Assembly (NCBI GenBank): GCA_028283145.1
Contig: JAPYNY010000023.1
Coordinates: 1-33,076, forward strand
Length of the DNA: 33,076 nt
DNA from: Candidatus Hopanoidivorans cymbastelae
Lineage (GTDB): Bacteria; Actinomycetota; Acidimicrobiia; Acidimicrobiales; Hopanoidiivorantaceae
Reading direction: 5' to 3'
Positions 12,602-28,976 of this stretch are shown here, piece after piece (within the stretch, counting starts at the first letter, position 1; each line of letters opens with the position of its first letter). Position numbers and translations under genes: made by a program. The notes beneath the pieces were generated by a model. It was not told where the DNA came from. It worked only from the letters and a program-made list of their open reading frames with translations, and searched no databases.

Positions 12602-13048
12602 ATGCCAGATTTATTTGAAAATTTGACAGCCAACGTGTCAAATGAATTGTCGTCGCTCACTGAGGAACTCTGGGAAGGCGATATGGAACCCGAGGTGTTA
12701 GAGCTTTGCAGAATTCGCATGGCTTCCATGTTGGGTTCGCCGACTGACGTGGCTCAGCGCAATCCCAAAGCTGTCGACGCCGGGCTTTCGGAGAAGAAAA
12801 TTCTGTCTCTCCCAATGTGGCCCACCTCAGAGTTGTTTTCAGAAGCTGAAAGAGCGGCTCTGGCCTTCACAGAAAAGTATGTGCAAGATGCTCACAGCAT
12901 CTCCGACAAGGACTGCGAGGAGTTGAACGGCCACCATTCACCTCAGGCTGTGGTGAACCTCACGCTAGCCTTGGCAACTTTTGAAGCCATTATCCGCAGT
13001 CGTGTAGTTTTGGCACAGTTGCGCTCTGAAGATTCAGACTCCGAGTAA
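12602..13048 (+). CDS. Carboxymuconolactone decarboxylase (CMD)-family protein without CxxC
   Basis: 148 aa, all-helical by composition. EPEVLELCRIRMASMLGSPTD aligns by eye to the CMD/AhpD core, but the position where redox members have CxxC reads SPTDV, so no peroxidase-type dithiol is present. The second half (SEAERAALAFTEKYV ... SPQAVVNLTLALATFEAI) matches the family's repeat helices. It resembles in layout the selenocysteine-type CMD protein at 15671, though divergent. Function unknown; cysteine-free members are often annotated only by family. Confidence 0.75.
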   Translation: MPDLFENLTANVSNELSSLTEELWEGDMEPEVLELCRIRMASMLGSPTDVAQRNPKAVDAGLSEKKILSLPMWPTSELFSEAERAALAFTEKYVQDAHSISDKDCEELNGHHSPQAVVNLTLALATFEAIIRSRVVLAQLRSEDSDSE

Positions 13049-13686
13049 ATTAAGCCAAGCCAGCCTCAGATAACTATAAAATGGGATTTCATGTGTTTTA
13101 TTTGTCTAGTTAGGTTTTTCGCGGTTAGCGGAAGGCAGGGTGGTTGGTTTAGGGGTGTTTGTGCATGTTGGGGAGATGGAAAACACCTTCAGGAAACCGG
13201 TTGGTCCCGATAAATTTGAACAACTGAGAAGCAAGATGGGAATAAGCATAGGCAAGCGCCAGCACCCTGTGAGGTTGTCTACCTGCCAGCATCGGGTTGC
13301 CCAGTTATTATATACTCATTAAGAGCGTTCTGGTTTCGTTCGGAGCCGCCGACTCAGATGAAAACGCTTTGGAAGGCGTAGGACGGCTCAAAGAGGAGCA
13401 GAGCCAATAGAGAAGAAAGAATGGATGTGAAACTTACTGATATGATTCACCGCGAAGAGTTCCGAAAACACTCTTCGGTGTGCCCTGAAATTCCGGTAGC
13501 CAGTCAAGGGAAATCAAAAAAGCAGGCCTCTACTATGCTAGCAGAAGTTACGGTTACCCGCCTTGGACTGCAAGAAGAACCCACAGGTTAGTTCTACAGT
13601 GCAGGATCTGGAAGAAACGCTGCTCGAGTATCCTCGTATAATGCGTGTTTAGCATGGGCCTTTGCCGCACGAAGTAGGGCAGAAAG

Positions 13687-13818
13687 TTGTCACCTTATGG
13701 GTCTCTTTCCAGTCGTCAGATAATCAAAATTCTGAAATCCCACGACTTCTGGTTTGTCTGCACGGAAGGAAGCTACCATCACTTTAAAAACAAGTACGGT
13801 AGACTGGTAATAGCTTAA
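13687..13818 (+). pseudogene. Possible HicA-like toxin remnant
   Basis: From a TTG at 13687, 43 codons read LSSRQIIKILKSHDFWFVC, then TEGSYHHFKNKYGRLVIA. This looks like the HicA/YcfA fold (helix with IIKIL, then GSHxxF and a strand), but the catalytic GSH is GSYHH and the C-terminal third, normally ending in a Leu-rich helix, is missing. Family members usually have 60-80 aa. No HicB-like gene follows. It could be a chance match; assignment rests on eye alignment only. Confidence 0.3.
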
Positions 13819-13820
13819 AC

Positions 13821-13864
13821 ACACCCGCTTAAATCACGGGCGTGTAAGGCAATAAATATTGCCT
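13821..13864. promoter_or_regulatory. Two adjacent hairpins upstream of the unknown gene at 13915
   Basis: CCCG (13824-13827) can pair with CGGG (13837-13840), and an almost perfect palindrome AGGCAATAAATATTGCCT occupies 13847-13864. They lie 50-95 nt before the 13915 start and could be an operator, an attenuator or a terminator for the preceding fragment. Confidence 0.35.
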
Positions 13865-13914
13865 CTGACGAGACTACCTGGCAGACAATACTACACAGAT
13901 AGGGGAAGGACAAG

Positions 13915-14595
13915 ATGGCTTACAACGCCCATCCGATGAACACCACCACAGTTACTTGGCTGGCCGAAGCGGTGGAAGACACACTCACCACAAAGGGAAC
14001 TTCTGTACTGCCTCTATCGGAGAGTGTGGAAGAACGACTACAAGTTAATAACTACAAGGTTATCACCAAACCTACGCTGACGTTGGAAGACGCTTCCAGC
14101 TTCATTCAGCGAATGAAGTTCCTAGGTTCGCTGCTTGATTTCCTAGCAGCACCGAAAACATCTTACACACATCTGATAATCCAAGCCAACGAACAGGGGT
14201 TAGGCAAAGACATCCAAGCTGGGTTGATAGCGGTTTTCCCTCTGACTGAAACAGGTGAGAATCAAGCCCGACTGCTTCATTCGGAGTTGCCCTTCAGCTA
14301 TCTGAAACGAACTGAGCGCGGCAAAACCGAGGAGTTGAGCAGACAGCACGACAACTGGAGTGATATAACTGCTAGACCTGTTGCGCCTATGTCGGTGAAA
14401 GTCATTCAACCTGACGGCACCGAGATGGAATACAGAACTTTGCCTTCACCTTCAGCTATATTGGCTTCGGCTTTCCTTGCGCACCCTGAAACTGACCCTG
14501 ACTGCCCGTTCAGGCAAGTCGTCCAGTGGGAGCACGACAGGGTTGAACTGGCTGGTGCTGACGGGCGGAAGTTCATCTGTGAGCCGACAGGATAG
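13915..14595 (+). CDS. Hypothetical protein in AT-richer island
   Basis: 226 aa, not recognised. A good ribosome binding site (GGGGAAGGA) lies about 5-6 nt before the ATG, which supports real expression. The protein is soluble, without signal peptide, transmembrane helix or obvious catalytic motif. Segments such as LTLEDASSFIQRMKFLGSLL suggest helix, and VKVIQPDGTEMEYR plus WEHDRVELAGADGRKF suggest beta hairpins, so a mixed alpha/beta fold is likely. It stands between a possible toxin remnant and two doubtful small ORFs, upstream of the selenoprotein gene, with no functional partner evident. Probably horizontally acquired, judged from context and composition. Confidence 0.55.
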   Translation: MAYNAHPMNTTTVTWLAEAVEDTLTTKGTSVLPLSESVEERLQVNNYKVITKPTLTLEDASSFIQRMKFLGSLLDFLAAPKTSYTHLIIQANEQGLGKDIQAGLIAVFPLTETGENQARLLHSELPFSYLKRTERGKTEELSRQHDNWSDITARPVAPMSVKVIQPDGTEMEYRTLPSPSAILASAFLAHPETDPDCPFRQVVQWEHDRVELAGADGRKFICEPTG

Positions 14596-14756
14596 CAGCG
14601 GTGAAACTTCTAGCGGTAGCCATAGCAACCGTGGTACCGTCTGTACGTTGTCTCCGTGGCGGGTATTCAGCATTCAGACGGGTTATATACCGATACCTGA
14701 AGTCCTGAGCATATCGGGAAGCTAACCCTGAGAGGCTGGATAAATGCAGAAGGTGG

Positions 14757-15182
14757 ATGCCTCACACCATTTGCACTTTGAATAATGTTTGGATAACCGA
14801 GTGGGATTTGCCTTCGTTCACTGCCAGTTGGGAGGTAGCGTTTCTGACTGGAGCTTGGAACAGCACTCACCCTTTGGAAGACAGCAACACCTGTAGTCTG
14901 TTCGTGGCATATGACCTGTTTGACATAAACAGGCAAGTCAGCTATGTCGGAGAGCCTTATGATGTGTGCTATAACACCCGATATTTCTCAATCGGAGAGA
15001 CTGGAGCGGGATACCACAGCACACTAACTGCTCGAAGCAGCCAACCGATGACAACCGCCAAGCCAACATTGGTGGTAGGTGCAAGCCATGTCTCTGGCTG
15101 CCCCAAATGTAAGCAGTATAGGCGGGATTTGAAAACCTGGATGAGGCAGCACTGCTTTGAACTATCTTGCAAAGGTGAATAG
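14757..15182 (+). CDS. Hypothetical small protein with C-terminal CxxC
   Basis: 141 aa, not recognised. The N-terminal two-thirds is rich in Trp, Tyr, Ser and Thr with beta-like alternation; the C-terminus contains SGCPKCKQYRRDLKTW and a further HCFELSC, which could bind a metal. AAGGTGG directly abuts the ATG, so initiation is not well supported. It may be a decayed or spurious frame. Confidence 0.35.
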   Translation: MPHTICTLNNVWITEWDLPSFTASWEVAFLTGAWNSTHPLEDSNTCSLFVAYDLFDINRQVSYVGEPYDVCYNTRYFSIGETGAGYHSTLTARSSQPMTTAKPTLVVGASHVSGCPKCKQYRRDLKTWMRQHCFELSCKGE

Positions 15183-15670
15183 ATCTGAGGGGGAGAGAGT
15201 AGCCCGTAGAAAAACAGCCGATGAGAGCTATAGGGAGTCTTTACATGAGAGGAACTGCCAACAGAGTTGGAAGCGGAGATTGAAACGGAAGCTGCCAGCT
15301 TGGATAGAACGGGGAGGCAGGTGCGCTGTCTGTGCTACTTCCATACCGCTCTGCAGCTGCTCTCAGACTAGCTCTGGTGTTGTGCACCCTAAAAAAGATG
15401 TGTACATAGACCGCTGAAATCCATCATCAACCGGTCAGGCATCCCAAAAAAAGTCTTCACGGGAAACTAACAGAACGCAGTTCCGACGACAGCAGCAAGG
15501 GCAGCTAATTTTGAGTTACAGTGCAATGCAAAGATCAGAAGCTCAACTACGAAACTCACGGGTGCCTAATGTGGATGATTCTATAGACAGTGTTTTTTGA
15601 CGGAAAAACCCACAAATGGTAAGTTAAGTTTGTAGTTGCCTATAAAATGAATACCTAGGAAGGAATTATT
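15183..15670. other. 488-bp stretch upstream of the selenoprotein gene
   Basis: No convincing gene. A TTG-initiated plus frame (15157-15417, 86 aa, basic with CAVC and CSC) overlaps the previous ORF and has no recognisable family. Near the 3' end a TATAAA at 15641-15646 could be a -10 element for the 15671 gene, and AGGAAGG (15657-15663) is its ribosome binding site. Confidence 0.45.
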
Positions 15671-16171
15671 ATGCGCCTTAAGCCCCCAGACGGAACAAGT
15701 ATATTCGGATATCAGCCTGAACTAGCTGCCAGCTTCTGGCGGTTTTATGGCGAGTTGTGGTCTAACGGCGAGTTGGACCAGTCCACCAAGGAGGTGGCTC
15801 GGCTCCGCAACGCCCGTCTCAACGATTGCGGCATATGAAAGAACGTACGTTTCGCAGGTGCGAAACAGCAGGGTCTCACAGAAGAGCTAGTAGAGCAAAT
15901 CGTTGACGGCTACGAAGACTCCGAACTGTCTCAAAAGCACAAGGCAGCCTTAGCCTATGTTGACGTGATTCTGACCGATCCCAACAAAGTCATGGATGAG
16001 GAGCTTAAGGCCAGCTTGCGCCAGCACTTTTCAGATGCCGAGTTGGAGGAGTTGACCCTCACCGCCGGCATCGCCTGTGGTTTTTCCAAAGCTGCCATTG
16101 CCTGGGGGCCACCTCCTGAAATGCCTGTAATGGAAATGCCATCGCCCGACCCAAATAGCCCCATTATTTGA
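15671..16171 (+). CDS. CMD/AhpD-like selenoprotein (in-frame UGA, CxxU motif)
   Basis: Read through one in-frame TGA (15836-15838), the gene encodes 166 aa of the carboxymuconolactone decarboxylase/AhpD family. The segment RLRNARLNDCGI-U-KNVRF shows that the TGA replaces the second cysteine of the redox CxxC seen in relatives (typically DCxYC followed by a basic helix), giving Cys53-Gly-Ile-Sec56. Both sides belong to one family in one frame: helix ASFWRFYGELW before, and HKAALAYVDVILTDPNKV plus LTAGIACGFSKAAIAWG after. AGGAAGG lies 7 nt before the ATG. A SECIS-like hairpin follows the TGA, and selA and selB are 6-10 kb downstream. The likely role is thiol/selenol peroxide or disulfide reduction in the cytoplasm. 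The alternative, a nonsense mutation, is less likely because the remainder is intact. Confidence 0.88.
15836..15866 (+). promoter_or_regulatory. UGA selenocysteine codon with bacterial SECIS-like hairpin
   Basis: Right after the UGA, GTTTCGC (15849-15855) pairs perfectly with GCGAAAC (15860-15866) around the loop AGGU. Loop guanines begin 18 nt after the UGA, within the range known for bacterial SECIS elements, which also require a G early in the apical loop to bind SelB. Confidence 0.82.
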
Positions 16172-19524: not shown

Positions 19525-19621
19525 TACAATCCGTTCATTGCTGAATGAATTGGATGAATCTGTTCCTAGCGGTTATGCCACACGTTTTACAATTGTGGGA
19601 GATGGTAGAGTGGGTGCATGA
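19484..19621 (+). CDS. Hypothetical 45-aa protein coupled to the HEPN gene
   Basis: Starts inside the preceding ORF and ends in TGA overlapping the start of the HEPN gene (ATGA at 19618-19621), a layout that favours coupled translation. EPNTIRSLLNELDESVPSGY could be a helix plus turn. No family recognised. Cassette 2 has no equivalent, so it is not an obligatory part of the cassette. Confidence 0.35.
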   Translation: MKRETCERVSLEPNTIRSLLNELDESVPSGYATRFTIVGDGRVGA

Positions 19622-20784
19622 ATAAAGCGGAGTTGGCGGCTGTCATAAAGGAAGCAACGGGGGCACATGTCCTAGGCGTCTTGCCTTCGTCGGAAGGGCA
19701 CAGTTTTGGTGTAACCCCGTTTGAATTGCTGGTTCAGGGCGAAACAGGAAAAGTTGAACGTTTCAGGCTTGGCGACTGCAAGCTCATAGGCGTTCACCAA
19801 GGGGATGGGACGGCTCGCTTGGAGCTGCATGGAACGCATTTTCATTCTGATTTTCATCGCAGAAGCGAAGGGAGCACAGATCCTGAAGTAGATCAGTTCA
19901 GAAAGCAGTTTGCTTGTGCTATGTCATTTTACGAGGACTGGCAGTTTTTGTGGGAGCGAACCATGCTGCCCGAATTTACTTCCATTGTGAACGATTATTG
20001 GGCTTGGAAGCATGTCGGCTCATGGAATAAATATCCAGGTCCTTCCACGATCACGACAGGTCCGATGGAAGTTCATGGTAGCGTTAGGCAAAACATGGGT
20101 CGAGCCTTGGGTAAGTCTTTGTTTACCAGTTTGGACGCTTTTCTTCTTCAAAAAGAATACACAGGGCACCATTACGGAAAGACAGGATCACTTAATAGCG
20201 GTGAGTGGTATGAAGGCATCACTCCGACATTGAGGTTTTTGGTTAAATGGTTGGAAGATGCTTGCATTTATGACGTCTGCAAGAAAAAGTATGTTTCAGT
20301 TTTATCTAAAGAGCAGCAAAATAAACTGAAAAAAATTCAAGTTGAAATTGAACAATACGACCCGTTTTGTTTTTGGAATCAAGTGGAAAGAGATTGGAAA
20401 CAAAAAAGCAATTCTCAATCCAAAATGGATTTTGTACTCAACATGGCTGACAAGCAGAAACAAGACCCAGAAAAAGAAGAAGAAATGATAGCCACTTATA
20501 TTCGTACAGCAAGAAACACTGCGGCACATAATCGATACCCTACGACAATTGAGCAGATGTATCTGCTTCGTGTTGGCTATAAGGGAATTGAAGAGACACT
20601 GTCTGGGCAAGCTTTGGATGCTTGTTACAGTTTTCTTGCCGAGTTGCACACGGATGTGTGCAGCTTAGAGCGAGCAAACATAAAATGCTGGCATGAGGAG
20701 ATTTGCAAAGAGGCGCAAAGCTGTGCTGAAAAATTGGCGTACGTTCTTGGAAGCGAAGAAATTGCCAAGGCGAGGTCAGCATGA
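19618..20784 (+). CDS. HEPN-type putative RNase, first gene of cassette 1
   Basis: 388 aa. The last third holds TARNTAAHNRYPTTIEQMYL, with Arg299-Asn300 and His304: the R-(N/D/H)-x3-H motif of HEPN ribonucleases, set between helices (IATYIR before, LLRVGY after). Residues 1-110 look like a mixed alpha/beta domain (GVTPFELLVQGETGKVERFRL), followed by a long helical middle with ALGKSLFTSLDAFLL and EGITPTLRFLVKWL. No transmembrane segment. The equal-length protein at 27299 shares the same blocks. The gene overlaps both neighbours by ATGA and leads a three-gene unit with DUF2442-like and DUF4160-like proteins. HEPN proteins in such settings usually are RNA-cleaving toxins or abortive-infection effectors; that role is inferred. 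The N-terminal domain is unrecognised. Confidence 0.75.
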   Translation: MNKAELAAVIKEATGAHVLGVLPSSEGHSFGVTPFELLVQGETGKVERFRLGDCKLIGVHQGDGTARLELHGTHFHSDFHRRSEGSTDPEVDQFRKQFACAMSFYEDWQFLWERTMLPEFTSIVNDYWAWKHVGSWNKYPGPSTITTGPMEVHGSVRQNMGRALGKSLFTSLDAFLLQKEYTGHHYGKTGSLNSGEWYEGITPTLRFLVKWLEDACIYDVCKKKYVSVLSKEQQNKLKKIQVEIEQYDPFCFWNQVERDWKQKSNSQSKMDFVLNMADKQKQDPEKEEEMIATYIRTARNTAAHNRYPTTIEQMYLLRVGYKGIEETLSGQALDACYSFLAELHTDVCSLERANIKCWHEEICKEAQSCAEKLAYVLGSEEIAKARSA

Positions 20785-21305
20785 CAACAACCAGCGCGTA
20801 TCCGCTCAAATCGGTGAAACCTCTGGCTGGGTATAAAATCTGGGCGGAGTTCTCAGACGGAACCGAAGGGGAAGTTGATTTGACCTGTCTGACTGAAATA
20901 CCGTATCTGTCTAAACTGAAGGATCTGAAGGTTTTTGCTAGTGTACGTTTGGACGATGGTGGAAGCGCGCTCAAATGGGGAGCAGATGAGGAAGAGTTGG
21001 ATGCCAGTTGGGAAACCGTTTATGAGCAACTCACCGGCAAAAGCTACAAAGAAGCCTTACCCGATATTGAACCTATAGTAGTTGTGGCAATCAACTGGAA
21101 CATCATCCCAGACGTGCGCATTAAATTTTCCGATGGCACACAGGGTGAAGTCCGCCTCACAAATATCAGTTATGAACCTGCAGACACGGAAGATATCAAA
21201 GAGCCCCACACTCTTTTTGTGACTGATGCGGGAGGTGTCATCTGGGGCAATAAAGAATTCTACACCGACGAGATATATGAACTTTTGACACCCGAAGTCT
21301 CATAA
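20781..21305 (+). CDS. Protein with two DUF2442-like domains, cassette 1
   Basis: 174 aa formed by two similar halves. Half 1 (about 9-90): VKPLAGYKIWAEFSDGTEGE, then DLTCLTEIPYLSKLKDLKVF and LKWGADEEELDASWETVY. Half 2 (about 99-172): VVVAINWNIIPDVRIKFSDG, then TQGEVRLTNI, FVTDAGGVIWG and DEIYELLTPE. The pattern DGxxGEVxL ... (L/I)xWxxxxExxxxxIYExLTG is that of DUF2442, small proteins often found next to DUF4160 genes and suspected to be antitoxin-like. The start overlaps the HEPN stop by ATGA, so the two are made together, as expected of a toxin with its neutraliser. The paralogue at 28470 has the same two-half layout. Confidence 0.78.
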   Translation: MTTTSAYPLKSVKPLAGYKIWAEFSDGTEGEVDLTCLTEIPYLSKLKDLKVFASVRLDDGGSALKWGADEEELDASWETVYEQLTGKSYKEALPDIEPIVVVAINWNIIPDVRIKFSDGTQGEVRLTNISYEPADTEDIKEPHTLFVTDAGGVIWGNKEFYTDEIYELLTPEVS

Positions 21306-22443: not shown

Positions 22444-23862
22444 ATGAGCCCAGCCCGCGAAGCCGCTTTGGCCAGCGAGGCCGCTTTGGCCAGTGAGGCC
22501 GCTTCGGGCAGCGAGCATAGCCAAACCCGCCAGACCGACCAAACCAGCAGAGCCGTCCCGCCCTCGGTTGATGCCTTGGCCCGCCAGCTAGCCCAGTCTT
22601 CCCCCCTGCCGCATCCGCTTCTGGTTGATGCGGCGCGCGAAGCTATAGCGACAGGCCACCCAGACCAAGCCGAAGCCTTGGCCCGCCAAGCTGAAGTCAA
22701 GCTGCTTCAGCCAGTCATCAACGCTACTGGCGTTTTGCTCCACACCAATTTAGGCAGGGCGCCGTGGCCGCTCAGCCACCCAGCCGGCTATGCCAACCTG
22801 GAATTCAACTTGGCTACGGGCAAGCGCGGTTCACGCCAGTCGGCAGTGGGGCAGCTATTTGCCAAGCTGGTCGGAGCCGAAAGTGCTCACATTGTCAATA
22901 ACGGAGCCGGGGCGATGCTGCTGGCTTTGGCTGCGCTGGCGGACGGGCGTGGCGTGGCGGTGTCGCGTGGCGAGTTGGTGGAGATTGGCGGCGGTTTCAG
23001 AGTGCCCGAAGTGATGAGCCAGTCAGGAGCCAAGCTGATTGAAGTGGGCACCACCAACCGCACCCGAGTTGGCGACTACGCCAGTGCCATGTCGCGCTCT
23101 TCGGCAGATATTGCGCTGTGTTTGAAAGTCCACCAGTCAAACTACACCATTGAAGGCTTCACCGAGTCGGTCTCGGTGGGCGAGTTGGTGCAGCTGGGAG
23201 CACCAGTTATCTTTGACATCGGTTCTGGGCTGTTGGATGCCAGTTGTCCCTGGCTTGCGGGCGGGCCACCCGCGTGGCTAGCTAGTGAGCCGGCCGTGCG
23301 TCAAAGTCTGCAAGAAGGCGCCGACTTGGTGATTTTTTCGGGAGACAAGTTGCTGGGTGGCCCCCAAGCGGGCATCATCTGCGGGAACGCTGAGCTGGTC
23401 GAGCTTTGCGCACGACACCCCCTGGCTAGAGCACTGCGGCCCGGCAGTCACATACTTGCCGGCTTGCAGCACGTGGCGATGGCCTACCTGCGCCGAGATT
23501 TGTCGCAGCTTCCCTTCTGGCAGTTGGCCACCAGGCCCACCGAGGAGTTGAGGCAACGCATTGAGGCTGTCGGCTTGGGCCCGGCGGTGGAGATGGGCTC
23601 TGTGCCCGGCGGGGGCACCTTGCCTGGAGTGGAAATTCCCTCACTGGGAATTTGTCTTGAAGGGGATCTGAGCCATGAGTTGCGCCAGCGCAGCCCCGCA
23701 GTGATTGCTCGCGTCTCCCAAGGGCAGACCTATCTGGATTTCCGCACCATCTTCCCCGAACAAGATGCCGAAGTAGCCGAAGCGGTCAAAAGTTGCGCCA
23801 ATGCCAATGCCAATGCCAATGCCAAAGCTGGCAACATTGCCCCGCACCCGCACGCCGACTGA
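22444..23862 (+). CDS. selA: L-seryl-tRNA(Sec) selenium transferase SelA
   Basis: Converts Ser-tRNA(Sec) to Sec-tRNA(Sec) with selenophosphate; PLP-dependent, cytoplasmic. 472 aa, near the usual 460. Features: PVINATGVLLHTNLGRAPW (90-108), NLATGKRGSR, NNGAGAMLLAL, RGELVEIGGGFRVPEV, FDIGSGLL and the PLP lysine Lys302 in FSGDKLLGGPQAG. The termini have repeat-driven extras: three 18-bp copies at the 5' end and five 6-bp units at the 3' end. It is followed by selB, 62 nt away. Together they support decoding of the UGA at 15836. selC (tRNA-Sec) and selD were not found in the window. Confidence 0.96.
   Translation: MSPAREAALASEAALASEAASGSEHSQTRQTDQTSRAVPPSVDALARQLAQSSPLPHPLLVDAAREAIATGHPDQAEALARQAEVKLLQPVINATGVLLHTNLGRAPWPLSHPAGYANLEFNLATGKRGSRQSAVGQLFAKLVGAESAHIVNNGAGAMLLALAALADGRGVAVSRGELVEIGGGFRVPEVMSQSGAKLIEVGTTNRTRVGDYASAMSRSSADIALCLKVHQSNYTIEGFTESVSVGELVQLGAPVIFDIGSGLLDASCPWLAGGPPAWLASEPAVRQSLQEGADLVIFSGDKLLGGPQAGIICGNAELVELCARHPLARALRPGSHILAGLQHVAMAYLRRDLSQLPFWQLATRPTEELRQRIEAVGLGPAVEMGSVPGGGTLPGVEIPSLGICLEGDLSHELRQRSPAVIARVSQGQTYLDFRTIFPEQDAEVAEAVKSCANANANANAKAGNIAPHPHAD
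22462..22515 (+). repeat. Three 18-bp in-frame repeats in the selA 5' end
   Basis: Copies at 22462-22479, 22480-22497 and 22498-22515 (unit GCCGCTTTGGCCAGCGAG, third diverged) encode AALASE-type hexapeptides ahead of the conserved SelA domain. Confidence 0.8.
23797..23826 (+). repeat. Five 6-bp in-frame repeats in the selA 3' end
   Basis: GCCAAT four times, then GCCAAA, encode an Ala-Asn tract near the SelA C-terminus; such short repeats are prone to slippage, so copy number may vary between strains. Confidence 0.85.
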
Positions 23863-23924: not shown

Positions 23925-25712
23925 ATGCACGTCATCTCCACCGCCGGACATGTTGACCACGGCAAATCCACCCTGGTCTTGGCGCTCACAGGCACCGACC
24001 CCGACCGCTTCGCCGAGGAAAAAGAGCGTGGCCTCACCATAGACTTGGGTTTCGCCTCCATGACTTTGCCGTCTGGCAGACAGGTGTCGTTTGTGGATGT
24101 CCCTGGCCATGTGCGGTTTTTGAAAAACATGCTGGCAGGGGTCGGCGGGGTGGATGCCTGTCTCTTCATTGTGGCGGCCACCGAAGGCTGGAAGCCGCAG
24201 TCGGAGGAACACCTGCGCATTCTGGATTTGCTGGGGCTCAAGCAGGGGTTGGTGGTGCTCACCAAAGTTGGCATCGCCGATGAGGAATCGCGTGAAATCG
24301 CCTTGTTGGACATTGAAGACCATGTGGCAGGCACCTTCTTGGAGGGCGCCAAGGTCGTGGCAGTTGACTCCATGGAGAGAATCGGCCTTGAAGAGTTGCG
24401 CCACAGCTTGGATGAGATGTTGCAGCAAACTCCGCCAGCCCCCGACCACCATCGCCCCCGACTTTGGATTGACCGCACTTTCACCATCAAAGGCGCCGGT
24501 GCCGTTGTAACTGGCACGTTGCTGGGAGGCCAGTTGACGGTGGAAGACAAGTTGTTGCTGGTGTCGCAGCAGAGGGAGGCACGCAATAGCGAAGTGCGGG
24601 TGAGGGGCATTCAGACGCACGACCGAGCCATTGAAACTGCGGTTCCAGGCAGTAGGGTAGCTTTGAATCTGGTCGGAATCGGTGCGGCTGAAATGCAGCG
24701 AGGAGATGTGCTGGTGCAGGCGGGGCAGTGGTATCAAAGCGATACTTTTGACGCTTCGCTGTCGGTGCTGGAGTCGCTCAATCACGATGTGTCAAGGCGG
24801 GGCGCGTACGTGGCCTACCTTGGCTCAGGTGAGTTTCCCGTCCGAGTGAGGGTGCTAAGCACGCACGACTTGCTGCCCGGCGAAACAGGGGCGGTGCGGG
24901 TGTTCCTGCCGCACAAGTTGCCGCTTTTGCCGGGCGATTATTTTGTGTTGCGTGAATTCGGGCGGGCTGAAACCGCTGGCGGGGGGCAAGTGCTAGACGT
25001 CGCGCCGTGCCTGCCTGCGTCCAAAGCTCAGCCCCTTTGTCTGAGTGACGGGCAGTTGGACGTCGCAACCAACACAGAGCGGATAGTCAAGGAACGGGGC
25101 TGGGTCAAGGCTGAAGAGTTGCGTTTGCTGGCGGGCGAAGCTGTGGCTGCGATGGTGGACAGCTGGGCAGTGGGGGATTGGATTGTGTGGCCGCAGGCTT
25201 TGGAAGCCACACGCCAAGGCATCCAGGAGTTGCTGTCTGAAAGCCCTGTTGATTTGGCAACCATGGACGAACGCCAGCGCATCGCTCTGGAAGGCATGGA
25301 AGGCGTGGAGATTGAGGGTAGCCTGGTTCGCTTGCCGGGGCAAATAGACAATTTGGCGCAGCACCCATATCTGCAAGCTCTGGCGGAATCGCTTTTTACA
25401 CCTCCGTCGCCCGAGGGTGTGGACAGAACGGAATTGCGGGCCATGCTTCACAGGGGCTTGCTGGTGGAATCGTCGGGAGTGTTCTTCGCCAACCAAGCAG
25501 TGGCAGCAGCGATGGAAGTTGCCGAGGAGTTGTTTGAACAAGCACCGCAGGGTTTCACAGTGGCAGCTATACGGGAGCGTTTGAGCACATCCAGGAAATA
25601 CATCATGCCGCTGCTTGAAATCTTGGACAGCCAAGGCATCACTAGGCGCCAAGGCGACCTTCGCACCGCAGGCCCGCGCCAAGCCGAGGCCAAAGCGAAA
25701 TTCAAAAACTAG
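23925..25712 (+). CDS. selB: Selenocysteine-specific elongation factor SelB
   Basis: GTPase that brings Sec-tRNA(Sec) to UGA codons marked by a SECIS hairpin. 595 aa from the ATG at 23925 (MHVISTAGHVDHGKST); the frame is open further upstream but that part overlaps selA and is repeat-derived. P-loop GHVDHGKST (8-16), EEKERGLTIDLGF (switch I), DVPGHVRF (switch II, 58-65). The G4 element reads TKVG (113-116) where TKxD/NKxD is expected. EF-Tu-like domains 2 and 3 follow, then the winged-helix tail that reads SECIS, with the hallmark end STSRKYIMPLLEILDSQGIT. Length is normal. It pairs with selA in one transcript. Confidence 0.95.
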   Translation: MHVISTAGHVDHGKSTLVLALTGTDPDRFAEEKERGLTIDLGFASMTLPSGRQVSFVDVPGHVRFLKNMLAGVGGVDACLFIVAATEGWKPQSEEHLRILDLLGLKQGLVVLTKVGIADEESREIALLDIEDHVAGTFLEGAKVVAVDSMERIGLEELRHSLDEMLQQTPPAPDHHRPRLWIDRTFTIKGAGAVVTGTLLGGQLTVEDKLLLVSQQREARNSEVRVRGIQTHDRAIETAVPGSRVALNLVGIGAAEMQRGDVLVQAGQWYQSDTFDASLSVLESLNHDVSRRGAYVAYLGSGEFPVRVRVLSTHDLLPGETGAVRVFLPHKLPLLPGDYFVLREFGRAETAGGGQVLDVAPCLPASKAQPLCLSDGQLDVATNTERIVKERGWVKAEELRLLAGEAVAAMVDSWAVGDWIVWPQALEATRQGIQELLSESPVDLATMDERQRIALEGMEGVEIEGSLVRLPGQIDNLAQHPYLQALAESLFTPPSPEGVDRTELRAMLHRGLLVESSGVFFANQAVAAAMEVAEELFEQAPQGFTVAAIRERLSTSRKYIMPLLEILDSQGITRRQGDLRTAGPRQAEAKAKFKN

Positions 25713-27275: not shown

Positions 27276-27298
27276 GATTGCACAGAAAGGAAACCGCC

Positions 27299-28465
27299 AT
27301 GGCCCTCAGGCTCTCACAGCGCAATGAGATAGATAAAATCGTAGAAGAAACGACTGGCGCGCACATAATATCTGTGCTGCCAGCGGTTCAAGAGCATGGT
27401 TTTGCATTATCTCCGTTTGAGGTGTTCATCGTGAAAAAAGACAGAATTGCAAACCGCTTCAGTCTTGGCGATTGTGAGTTGTTGGGATACCATAACAAAA
27501 ATGAACGCACTAGGCAAGTGGAATTGTTCATGCACAAGAACGGAAGCTATTCCACTTCGGGTTACAAATCAGATATTTGGCGGATTAGCGTTAATGGCAC
27601 AGATGATTTATCGCAGTTCAAGCGGCATTATAGAATTGTCAAAAATGTTTTCTTTGGAGATTGGCAGTATTTCTGGGAAAAAATTATATTAGAAGGGCTG
27701 GATTCCATAGAGACTGAACGCCAGATGTGGGAAAGCATTTCCGCGATGAACAGGATTGAACGTCAGCACAGCCTAAATTTGAAACTTGAACAATCTCTCA
27801 GGAAGTCACTGTTCACAAATTTGGACGCCTTTTTGATTCCAACTGGAAGCAGCACAATAAATGTCTCAGAATTCGCCAAAACAGGCGATATCTATGAAGG
27901 CGTCACTCCCTCATTAGCTGCCTTTGTCAAGTGGCTGCAGAATATTCCTCAGCTTTCTGGATCAGAAGGGAACTATTTTGATATTTTTTCCGATGAACAG
28001 AAGAGAGCACTTCAAGCTATTGAAAAAGATCTTACAAAATTTGATCCGTATAGTTTTTGGCAAACGATTGAGCAGATATCGGAAATGGAAAACATTGATT
28101 CCATCGACAAACTGAATTTTGTTTTAAGAGAAGCAGACATACAAAGAACCAGTGCAGACAAAAAGGAAGAACTGATAGCTACTTATATTCGGACAGCGAG
28201 GAATATTTTGGCGCACAATTTGGAAGCCACTTCAATAGAAGAAATGTATTTGCTGAGGATAGGCTACACCCCTGTTGCTGGCGACCTGGTCATATCCCAA
28301 GCTTTGGAAATCTGTTTTGATTTCGTCCAAAGATTGAACGACAACGTATTTTGCCTCCTGCCAGAACGATTGAAGAGCTGGGAAGACTGCGTCAAAAGAG
28401 CAGCTGCATCGGATACCAGAGATTTGGAAACCTGTTTGCAGAGCCATTCAGGCAGTTCCCTTTAG
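27299..28465 (+). CDS. HEPN-type putative RNase, first gene of cassette 2
   Basis: 388 aa from the ATG at 27299, which has AAAGGA 7 nt upstream; the in-frame start seven codons earlier lacks one. It is the diverged twin of the 19618 protein: TGAHIISVLP, FALSPFEVFIV, RFSLGDCELLGYH, SLRKSLFTNLDAFLI, YEGVTPSLAAFVKWL and DPYSFW all have counterparts in the same order. The HEPN motif is RNILAH (Arg301, His306) inside IATYIRTARNILAHNLEATS. Total length is identical to the twin, so both copies appear under constraint. Followed 4 nt later by the DUF2442-like gene. Proposed RNA-cleaving toxin or defence effector; the N-terminal 230 residues are unrecognised and may sense a trigger. Confidence 0.75.
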   Translation: MALRLSQRNEIDKIVEETTGAHIISVLPAVQEHGFALSPFEVFIVKKDRIANRFSLGDCELLGYHNKNERTRQVELFMHKNGSYSTSGYKSDIWRISVNGTDDLSQFKRHYRIVKNVFFGDWQYFWEKIILEGLDSIETERQMWESISAMNRIERQHSLNLKLEQSLRKSLFTNLDAFLIPTGSSTINVSEFAKTGDIYEGVTPSLAAFVKWLQNIPQLSGSEGNYFDIFSDEQKRALQAIEKDLTKFDPYSFWQTIEQISEMENIDSIDKLNFVLREADIQRTSADKKEELIATYIRTARNILAHNLEATSIEEMYLLRIGYTPVAGDLVISQALEICFDFVQRLNDNVFCLLPERLKSWEDCVKRAAASDTRDLETCLQSHSGSSL

Positions 28466-28469
28466 CCCT

Positions 28470-28976
28470 ATGCTCAAGTCAGTAACCCCTATGCCTGGGC
28501 ACAAAGTCTGGGCTGTGTTCTCAGACGGGTCGAAAGGCGAGGCCGACCTGTCTGGTCTGCTGGACATTCCGTATATGTCCAAACTGAAGGACTACGAGTT
28601 TTTTTCCACGATGCGCCTTATGGGGGGAGCGATTTTCTGGAATTATGGGAAGGACGATGAACTGGACTGCGGATGGGAGGACATCTACTTTCAGATAACT
28701 GGGAAGCGTTGGACTGAGATAGCAATGGAAGGCGTGGAACCCATAGCAATGAAGGAAGCCAAGATGATTGTCCCTCCGGATGTTTATGTGAAATTCAACG
28801 ACGGCGCGGAAGGTGAGATCCGTCTTACAGACTATTCTTATGACAAGGCCCCTCCGAATTTGATAGCAGATCCGTTGGACGTGTTCATATCAGATGATGG
28901 AGATTTGGTCTGGAATGGCAGAACGTTTGATCTGAACCAGATTTACGAGCACTTGACCTCAGACGACTTGAATTGA
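28470..28976 (+). CDS. Protein with two DUF2442-like domains, cassette 2
   Basis: 168 aa, parallel to the 20781 protein. Half 1: SVTPMPGHKVWAVFSDGSKG, LSGLLDIPYMSKLKDYEFF, FWNYGKDDELDCGWEDIYFQ. Half 2: PPDVYVKFNDGAEGEIRLTD, DVFISDDGDLVWNGRTFDLN, QIYEHLTSDD. Starts 4 nt after the HEPN stop, without overlap, unlike copy 1. No strong separate ribosome binding site, so translational coupling is likely. Proposed antitoxin or regulator of the HEPN protein, by position and family habit. Confidence 0.78.
   Translation: MLKSVTPMPGHKVWAVFSDGSKGEADLSGLLDIPYMSKLKDYEFFSTMRLMGGAIFWNYGKDDELDCGWEDIYFQITGKRWTEIAMEGVEPIAMKEAKMIVPPDVYVKFNDGAEGEIRLTDYSYDKAPPNLIADPLDVFISDDGDLVWNGRTFDLNQIYEHLTSDDLN

Follow-up and report, generated by a model that had tools for sequence, protein, structure and literature searches.

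Selenoproteins of the AhpD-like and CMD-domain type, in which selenocysteine (Sec, U) forms part of a CxxU motif, were reported in the 2005 Sargasso Sea selenoproteome (PMC1088965). In the entries of the current prokaryotic selenoprotein table that concern these proteins, the AhpD-like CxxU protein is listed under TIGR01926 (PMC13188914), and the CMD domain-containing CxxU selenoprotein (PF02627) is represented by MBW1767730.1 (PMC1088965, PMC13188914). According to these entries, Sec-containing AhpD-like/CMD-like CxxU proteins are already known; we count the gene described here as a further member. The catalytic relay of AhpD itself consists of Glu118, Cys130, His132, Cys133 and His137 (PMC3141380).

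The window, that is, the whole stretch of 33,076 nucleotides analysed here, contains an AhpD-like/CMD gene whose frame opens with ATG, carries a single internal TGA at codon 56 within the motif DCGIU (C53-G-I-U56) and continues for 110 codons after it, with neither a frameshift nor a second internal stop (Table 1). The Pfam model CMD (PF02627) matched the read-through protein with E = 7e-11 and 42.4 bits (cut-off 23). The initial annotation had claimed that one TGA interrupts a continuous frame exactly at the second residue of the redox CxxC, that both sides of the TGA belong to the same family, and that a 7-bp hairpin with the loop AGGU begins 10 nt past the TGA, its guanines standing at 18 nt. 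The position of the TGA was as described, the family claim is borne out by one PF02627 match that runs through the TGA from residue 16 to residue 96, and the hairpin coordinates were confirmed, the 18 nt being the distance to the first loop G. On comparative grounds, we consider it highly probable that the gene encodes a real selenoprotein of CMD/AhpD-like fold, and the predicted Sec insertion at UGA56 appears nearly certain. We base this reading on the TGA or Cys codon at the homologous position of relatives, the conserved hairpin, and the Sec machinery together with other canonical selenoproteins in the genome. Inspection by eye of the other window genes that contain one internal TGA brought up nothing else that was convincing.

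Table 1. Features of the window discussed in the text (strand + is the strand as presented)
Feature	Position	Strand	Remarks
CMD-fold paralogue without CxxC	12602..13048	+	in Acidimicrobiia it normally adjoins the Sec gene on the upstream side
2.6-kb stretch splitting the paralogue/Sec gene pair	13049..15670	.	ORFs 13915-14595 and 14757-15182
Shine-Dalgarno-like AGGAAGGA	15657..15664	+	assigned from sequence
Predicted AhpD-like/CMD selenoprotein gene	15671..16171	+	166 aa, Sec at codon 56, AlphaFold pLDDT 89.5
TGC, Cys53, first residue of CxxU	15827..15829	+	invariant in 26 aligned homologues
TGA, predicted Sec56, second-Cys position of CxxC	15836..15838	+	all aligned homologues have TGA or a Cys codon here
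Bacterial SECIS-type hairpin, 7-bp stem, loop AGGT	15849..15866	+	conservation, covariation
Terminal stop of the Sec gene	16169-16171	+	also TGA
selA, L-seryl-tRNA(Sec) selenium transferase	22444..23862	+	TIGR00474 387.8 bits, PF03841; start uncertain
selB, Sec-specific elongation factor	23925..25712	+	TIGR00475 291.9 bits, SelB winged helix PF09107

Homologues with TGA at the aligned codon occur in Acidimicrobiia, Rhodospirillaceae/Defluviicoccus and Binatia. A contig scan with peptides such as KQQGLTEE recovered TGA forms at four Acidimicrobiia loci (L002-L005), 17 Rhodospirillaceae/Defluviicoccus-type loci (16 distinct ones, L006 and L007 being one contig in two bins) and 8 Binatia loci, and Cys forms in Mycobacterium and Nevskia. 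Because such peptides favour UGA forms, 296 genomes of the class were searched without a peptide filter, and, the window aside, the best 16 loci (L078-L093, with 40-60% identity) comprised 12 UGA forms and 4 Cys forms. The latter, from G113, G160, G157 and G234 of the same class, have TGC or TGT at the codon, show 48-53% identity and sit at two separate places among the UGA forms in the tree. Residues E41, R44, C53, C/U56 and R60 are invariant across 26 aligned sequences. Among the genomes read, SelB scored over its cut-off in 17/17 with UGA forms versus 7/11 with Cys forms (Fisher p = 0.016, the genomes being related and therefore not independent). Since one class has the gene both with Sec and with Cys, in the presence and absence of SelB, the exchange of Sec and Cys is open to study in close orthologues. 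Among the records, the nearest relative of the window genome is an uncultured Acidimicrobiales genome.

The Acidimicrobiia gene has a regular companion. An upstream CMD paralogue lacking CxxC was found in 20/20 distinct Acidimicrobiia loci of the subfamily (the window, L002-L005 and L078-L093, with L082 repeating the L005 locus), the four Cys forms included. Gene order places it immediately before the Sec gene in L002-L005; in L003 and L004 the two genes overlap at ATGA or nearly do so. The window copy was considered as a further selenoprotein and rejected, having neither an internal TGA nor a CxxC. Its product is modelled by AlphaFold with the AhpD/CMD fold (pLDDT 93.5). CxxC was present in none of the upstream partners read, some of which retain one Cys close to the first Cys position, and in L089, L092 and L093 only the C-terminal half of the partner was recognised. 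At all 17 Rhodospirillaceae-type loci (16/16 distinct), a different CMD paralogue directly adjoins the Sec gene on the downstream side, its CxxC positions replaced mostly by an acidic or other residue plus Phe; this arrangement also occurs in two members of the class, G140 and G305. No partner paralogue was found at the Binatia loci and at those of some other UGA homologues, so the family in general does not depend on the partner. Phylogenetically, the downstream paralogues cluster with the Rhodospirillaceae selenoproteins (support 95), and the upstream ones fall with the Acidimicrobiia type. Because the two groups join different selenoprotein types, two origins of the dead paralogue are favoured; a single origin is disfavoured but not rejected (p-AU 0.097).

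Judging from gene pairing, the upstream paralogue probably provides a partner subunit with a structural or regulatory role. We tentatively hypothesize, giving the idea close to an even chance, that an active selenium subunit and a catalytically dead paralogue may form a hetero-oligomer. The stronger version, in which the hetero-oligomer would be obligate and active/dead pairs would have arisen separately in Acidimicrobiia and Rhodospirillaceae as a recurring architecture of Sec-containing AhpD-like enzymes, seems rather unlikely to us. A considerable chance, somewhat below even, belongs to the explanation that the selenoprotein is genuine but the paralogue is left over from a tandem duplication and shares no function with it. 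Such duplicates often lie side by side through descent alone, the partner is variable in sequence and shortened in some genomes, and in the window genome the two genes lie 2.6 kb apart. However, despite much divergence the pair has stayed tightly spaced or overlapping in L078-L093 and L002-L005, with Sec and Cys forms alike, the partner is predicted with high confidence to fold as a CMD protein, and a second pair exists in Rhodospirillaceae with the paralogue on the other side.

In one Acidimicrobiia subgroup (L079, L080, L086, L088 and L090), a gene that appears to encode a short-chain dehydrogenase (VTGAGQGVG) lies upstream of the paralogue/active-gene pair, a possible functional clue. At L095, L097, L098, L102 and L103, more distant AhpD-like genes with Sec or Cys are situated just downstream of a gene resembling molybdopterin oxidoreductases.

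The separation of the pair in the window is due to an insertion seen only in the window genome among these loci; the spacing is 92 bp in the same-genus genome, and elsewhere the genes overlap or are tens of bp apart. The two ORFs in the inserted stretch had no convincing family match, and no clear terminal repeats were found at its ends. A further insertion in the window genome separates a hydrolase gene from selA, the two being adjacent in L002. Two diverged copies of a two-gene cassette occur at 19618-21305, within this second insertion, and at 27278-28976, with 34% identity over the long gene. The cassette consists of a gene for a protein of ~390 amino acids with a conserved TYIRTARNxxAHN stretch, without a Pfam or PADLOC match, followed by a DUF2442 gene. 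Near the contig end, 30396-32102 encodes an AAA ATPase resembling defence ATPases of the OLD/AriA/GajA type (PADLOC AriA 1e-23).

Bacterial SECIS elements are hairpins shortly downstream of the UGA whose apical loop has a G as its first or second base. In the window, positions 15849-15855 pair with 15860-15866 in seven perfect pairs, and the loop at 15856-15859 (AGGT) has G as its second base. Taken alone, this hairpin stands out only moderately for a sequence encoding its protein: the stem was reached in 4.6% of the draws when codons were recoded synonymously (p 0.046), and the energy gave p 0.094. Synonymous-shuffle tests on single sequences have little power for the Acidimicrobiia type, whose peptide by itself already favours the stem, and we therefore relied on conservation and covariation. 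Counting the T of TGA as position 1, the Acidimicrobiia type has its stem at 14-20/25-31 with the loops AGGT, GGTC or AGTT, and the other UGA forms at 17-23/27-33 with GGC, GGT or GTT. In both registers, 100% of the cells are standard pairs, versus 26-66% in slid controls. Cells altered on both sides in a compensatory manner number 5 and 15 in the two register sets; for example, a T-A pair of the window corresponds to C-G in L003, both changes being synonymous. The hairpin is in place in nearly all of the 35 UGA forms; in the UGA homologues L038 and L041, no clean hairpin was found at the usual register. An unusually strong stem was found in 19/35 UGA forms versus 0/11 Cys forms. Between the window and the same-genus genome, 11/11 codons of residues 57-68 are identical versus 31/82 elsewhere (p = 7e-5, comparison restricted to identical residues), a contrast that is weaker or absent against more distant relatives.

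These observations bear on the explanation that the gene is a decaying pseudogene or contains a sequencing error, the TGA being a chance nonsense mutation of TGC or TGT. The TGA is indeed one base away from Cys codons, and 15671-16171 bears no other direct sign of translation. However, independent assemblies from several lineages agree on TGA at this codon, the frame is otherwise intact, the codons following the TGA are better conserved than those elsewhere, and a conserved hairpin follows on its 3' side. Chance is excluded by this conservation, namely TGA in three lineages, paired cells with compensatory changes and codon identity after the TGA, which refutes the reading as pseudogene or error and leaves it very improbable. 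The initial annotation had expected Cys at position 56 of orthologues, had named decay of the gene in relatives as a sign against its proposal and had concluded on a real selenoprotein. In our alignment the column is invariant with Cys or Sec, and in the relatives the gene is undecayed and its hairpin conserved with covariation. Along with the sel genes of the genome, the homologous TGA/Cys codons and the hairpin covariation support that conclusion.

The genome provides the means for decoding UGA as Sec. The ORF of selB opens at 23793, and the ATG at 23925 fits MHVISTAGHVDHGKS. ARAGORN and Rfam detected no tRNA-Sec or RNA family in the window alone; a tRNA-Sec with the anticodon TCA is located on another contig of the genome, so that the host carries selA, selB, selC and selD. 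SelD of the window genome itself contains Sec, with the active site GAG-U-AAK read through a TGA (L077, G000:C56). Sampling of the selenoproteome, carried out through family searches only, also revealed a formate dehydrogenase FdhA with CNRTUHAPSV (L108, G000:C4) and a peroxiredoxin with TPGU (L106, G000:C11). A second frame of the peroxiredoxin family with one TGA lies at G000:C19, and AhpC/TSA proteins are present in the genome. The U of CNRTUHAPSV in FdhA, of TPGU in peroxiredoxin and of GAGU in SelD stands at a known Sec position in each case. Because selA, selB, tRNA-Sec, SelD and the FdhA and peroxiredoxin selenoproteins occur in the genome, the organism is a Sec decoder. A reassigned code in which TGA is an ordinary sense codon for Trp or Gly would likewise keep the frame open, but it is hardly conceivable, since the Sec gene and selA both terminate in TGA, homologues have Cys rather than Trp or Gly at the position, the tRNA-Sec carries the TCA anticodon, and the other in-frame TGAs read fall on the known Sec positions of FdhA, peroxiredoxin and SelD.

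The AlphaFold model of the Sec protein has the all-helical AhpD/CMD fold and matches Pseudomonas aeruginosa PA0269 and other AhpD-like structures (Foldseek against 2IJC: probability 1.0, TM about 0.70 by query and 0.79 by target). The protein scored 19 with the AhpD core model TIGR00778 (cut-off 27.8) and 30.6 bits with the peroxidase-related model TIGR01926 (cut-off 81.8). The five-residue AhpD relay of Glu, Cys, His/Tyr, Cys and His is incomplete: the corresponding residues are Glu41, Cys53, Ile55, Sec56 and Arg60, so that Glu41 is retained, His132 is replaced by Ile55, and His137 by the invariant Arg60. We propose that SelB and Sec-tRNA(Sec), acting on the downstream hairpin, would decode UGA56 as Sec, and that Sec56, which takes the position of the peroxidatic second Cys in CxxC, is the likely nucleophile. 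Its location at the Cys133 position fits such a role in a thiol/selenol redox cycle with Cys53, which is expected to be the resolving thiol. By analogy with M. tuberculosis AhpD, Sec56 would be oxidised by a peroxide or disulfide substrate and would then form a selenenyl-sulfide with Cys53, which a cellular thiol or dithiol reductant would reset. Due to the replacement of His137 by Arg60 and of His132 by Ile55, the substrate or the proton path may differ from that of AhpD. The Sec protein is probably a redox enzyme of the AhpD type. Peroxidase activity of this type is a reasonable guess rather than a result, because the invariant Arg60 occupies the site of the relay His and the scores fall short of the NCBIfam AhpD cut-offs.

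With the Sec gene we have a well-secured case in which an ORF caller would cut a gene short, and the literature searched holds little on Sec in this Acidimicrobiia lineage. The conserved CxxC-less neighbour offers a concrete, testable hypothesis for functionally unknown selenoproteins. A word search of open-access literature found no description of the pairing with a dead paralogue, which is the part that may be new. As far as its account of the protein goes, the Sargasso AhpD-like selenoprotein resembles the window protein in belonging to the CMD/AhpD superfamily, in having Sec for the second Cys, in its downstream bacterial SECIS element and in its occurrence in marine bacteria; it differs in that the window protein scores below the TIGR01926 cut-off and in that this account mentions no paralogue pair. 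The CMD domain-containing selenoprotein, as tabulated, is likened to the window protein by family and motif alone, that is, by PF02627 over its cut-off and by CxxU. The best NCBIfam match of the window protein is the GroundWater_YciW (seleno)protein NF053654, a model annotated as (seleno)protein, with 41.5 bits, far below the equivalog cut-off of 310 bits. M. tuberculosis AhpD (1KNC, 1GU9) has Glu118, Cys130 and Cys133 where the window protein has Glu41, Cys53 and Sec56, but it carries His132 and His137 in place of Ile55 and Arg60, has another chain topology and is a weak fold match. The best solved relative by both sequence and fold is PA0269 (2IJC, 2O4D, 7XW1; PMC3141380). While it has Cys for Sec, His55 for the family's Arg60 and Tyr50 for Ile55 of the window protein, it shares with the latter the arrangement Glu-x11-Cys-x2-Cys in the same helix pair.
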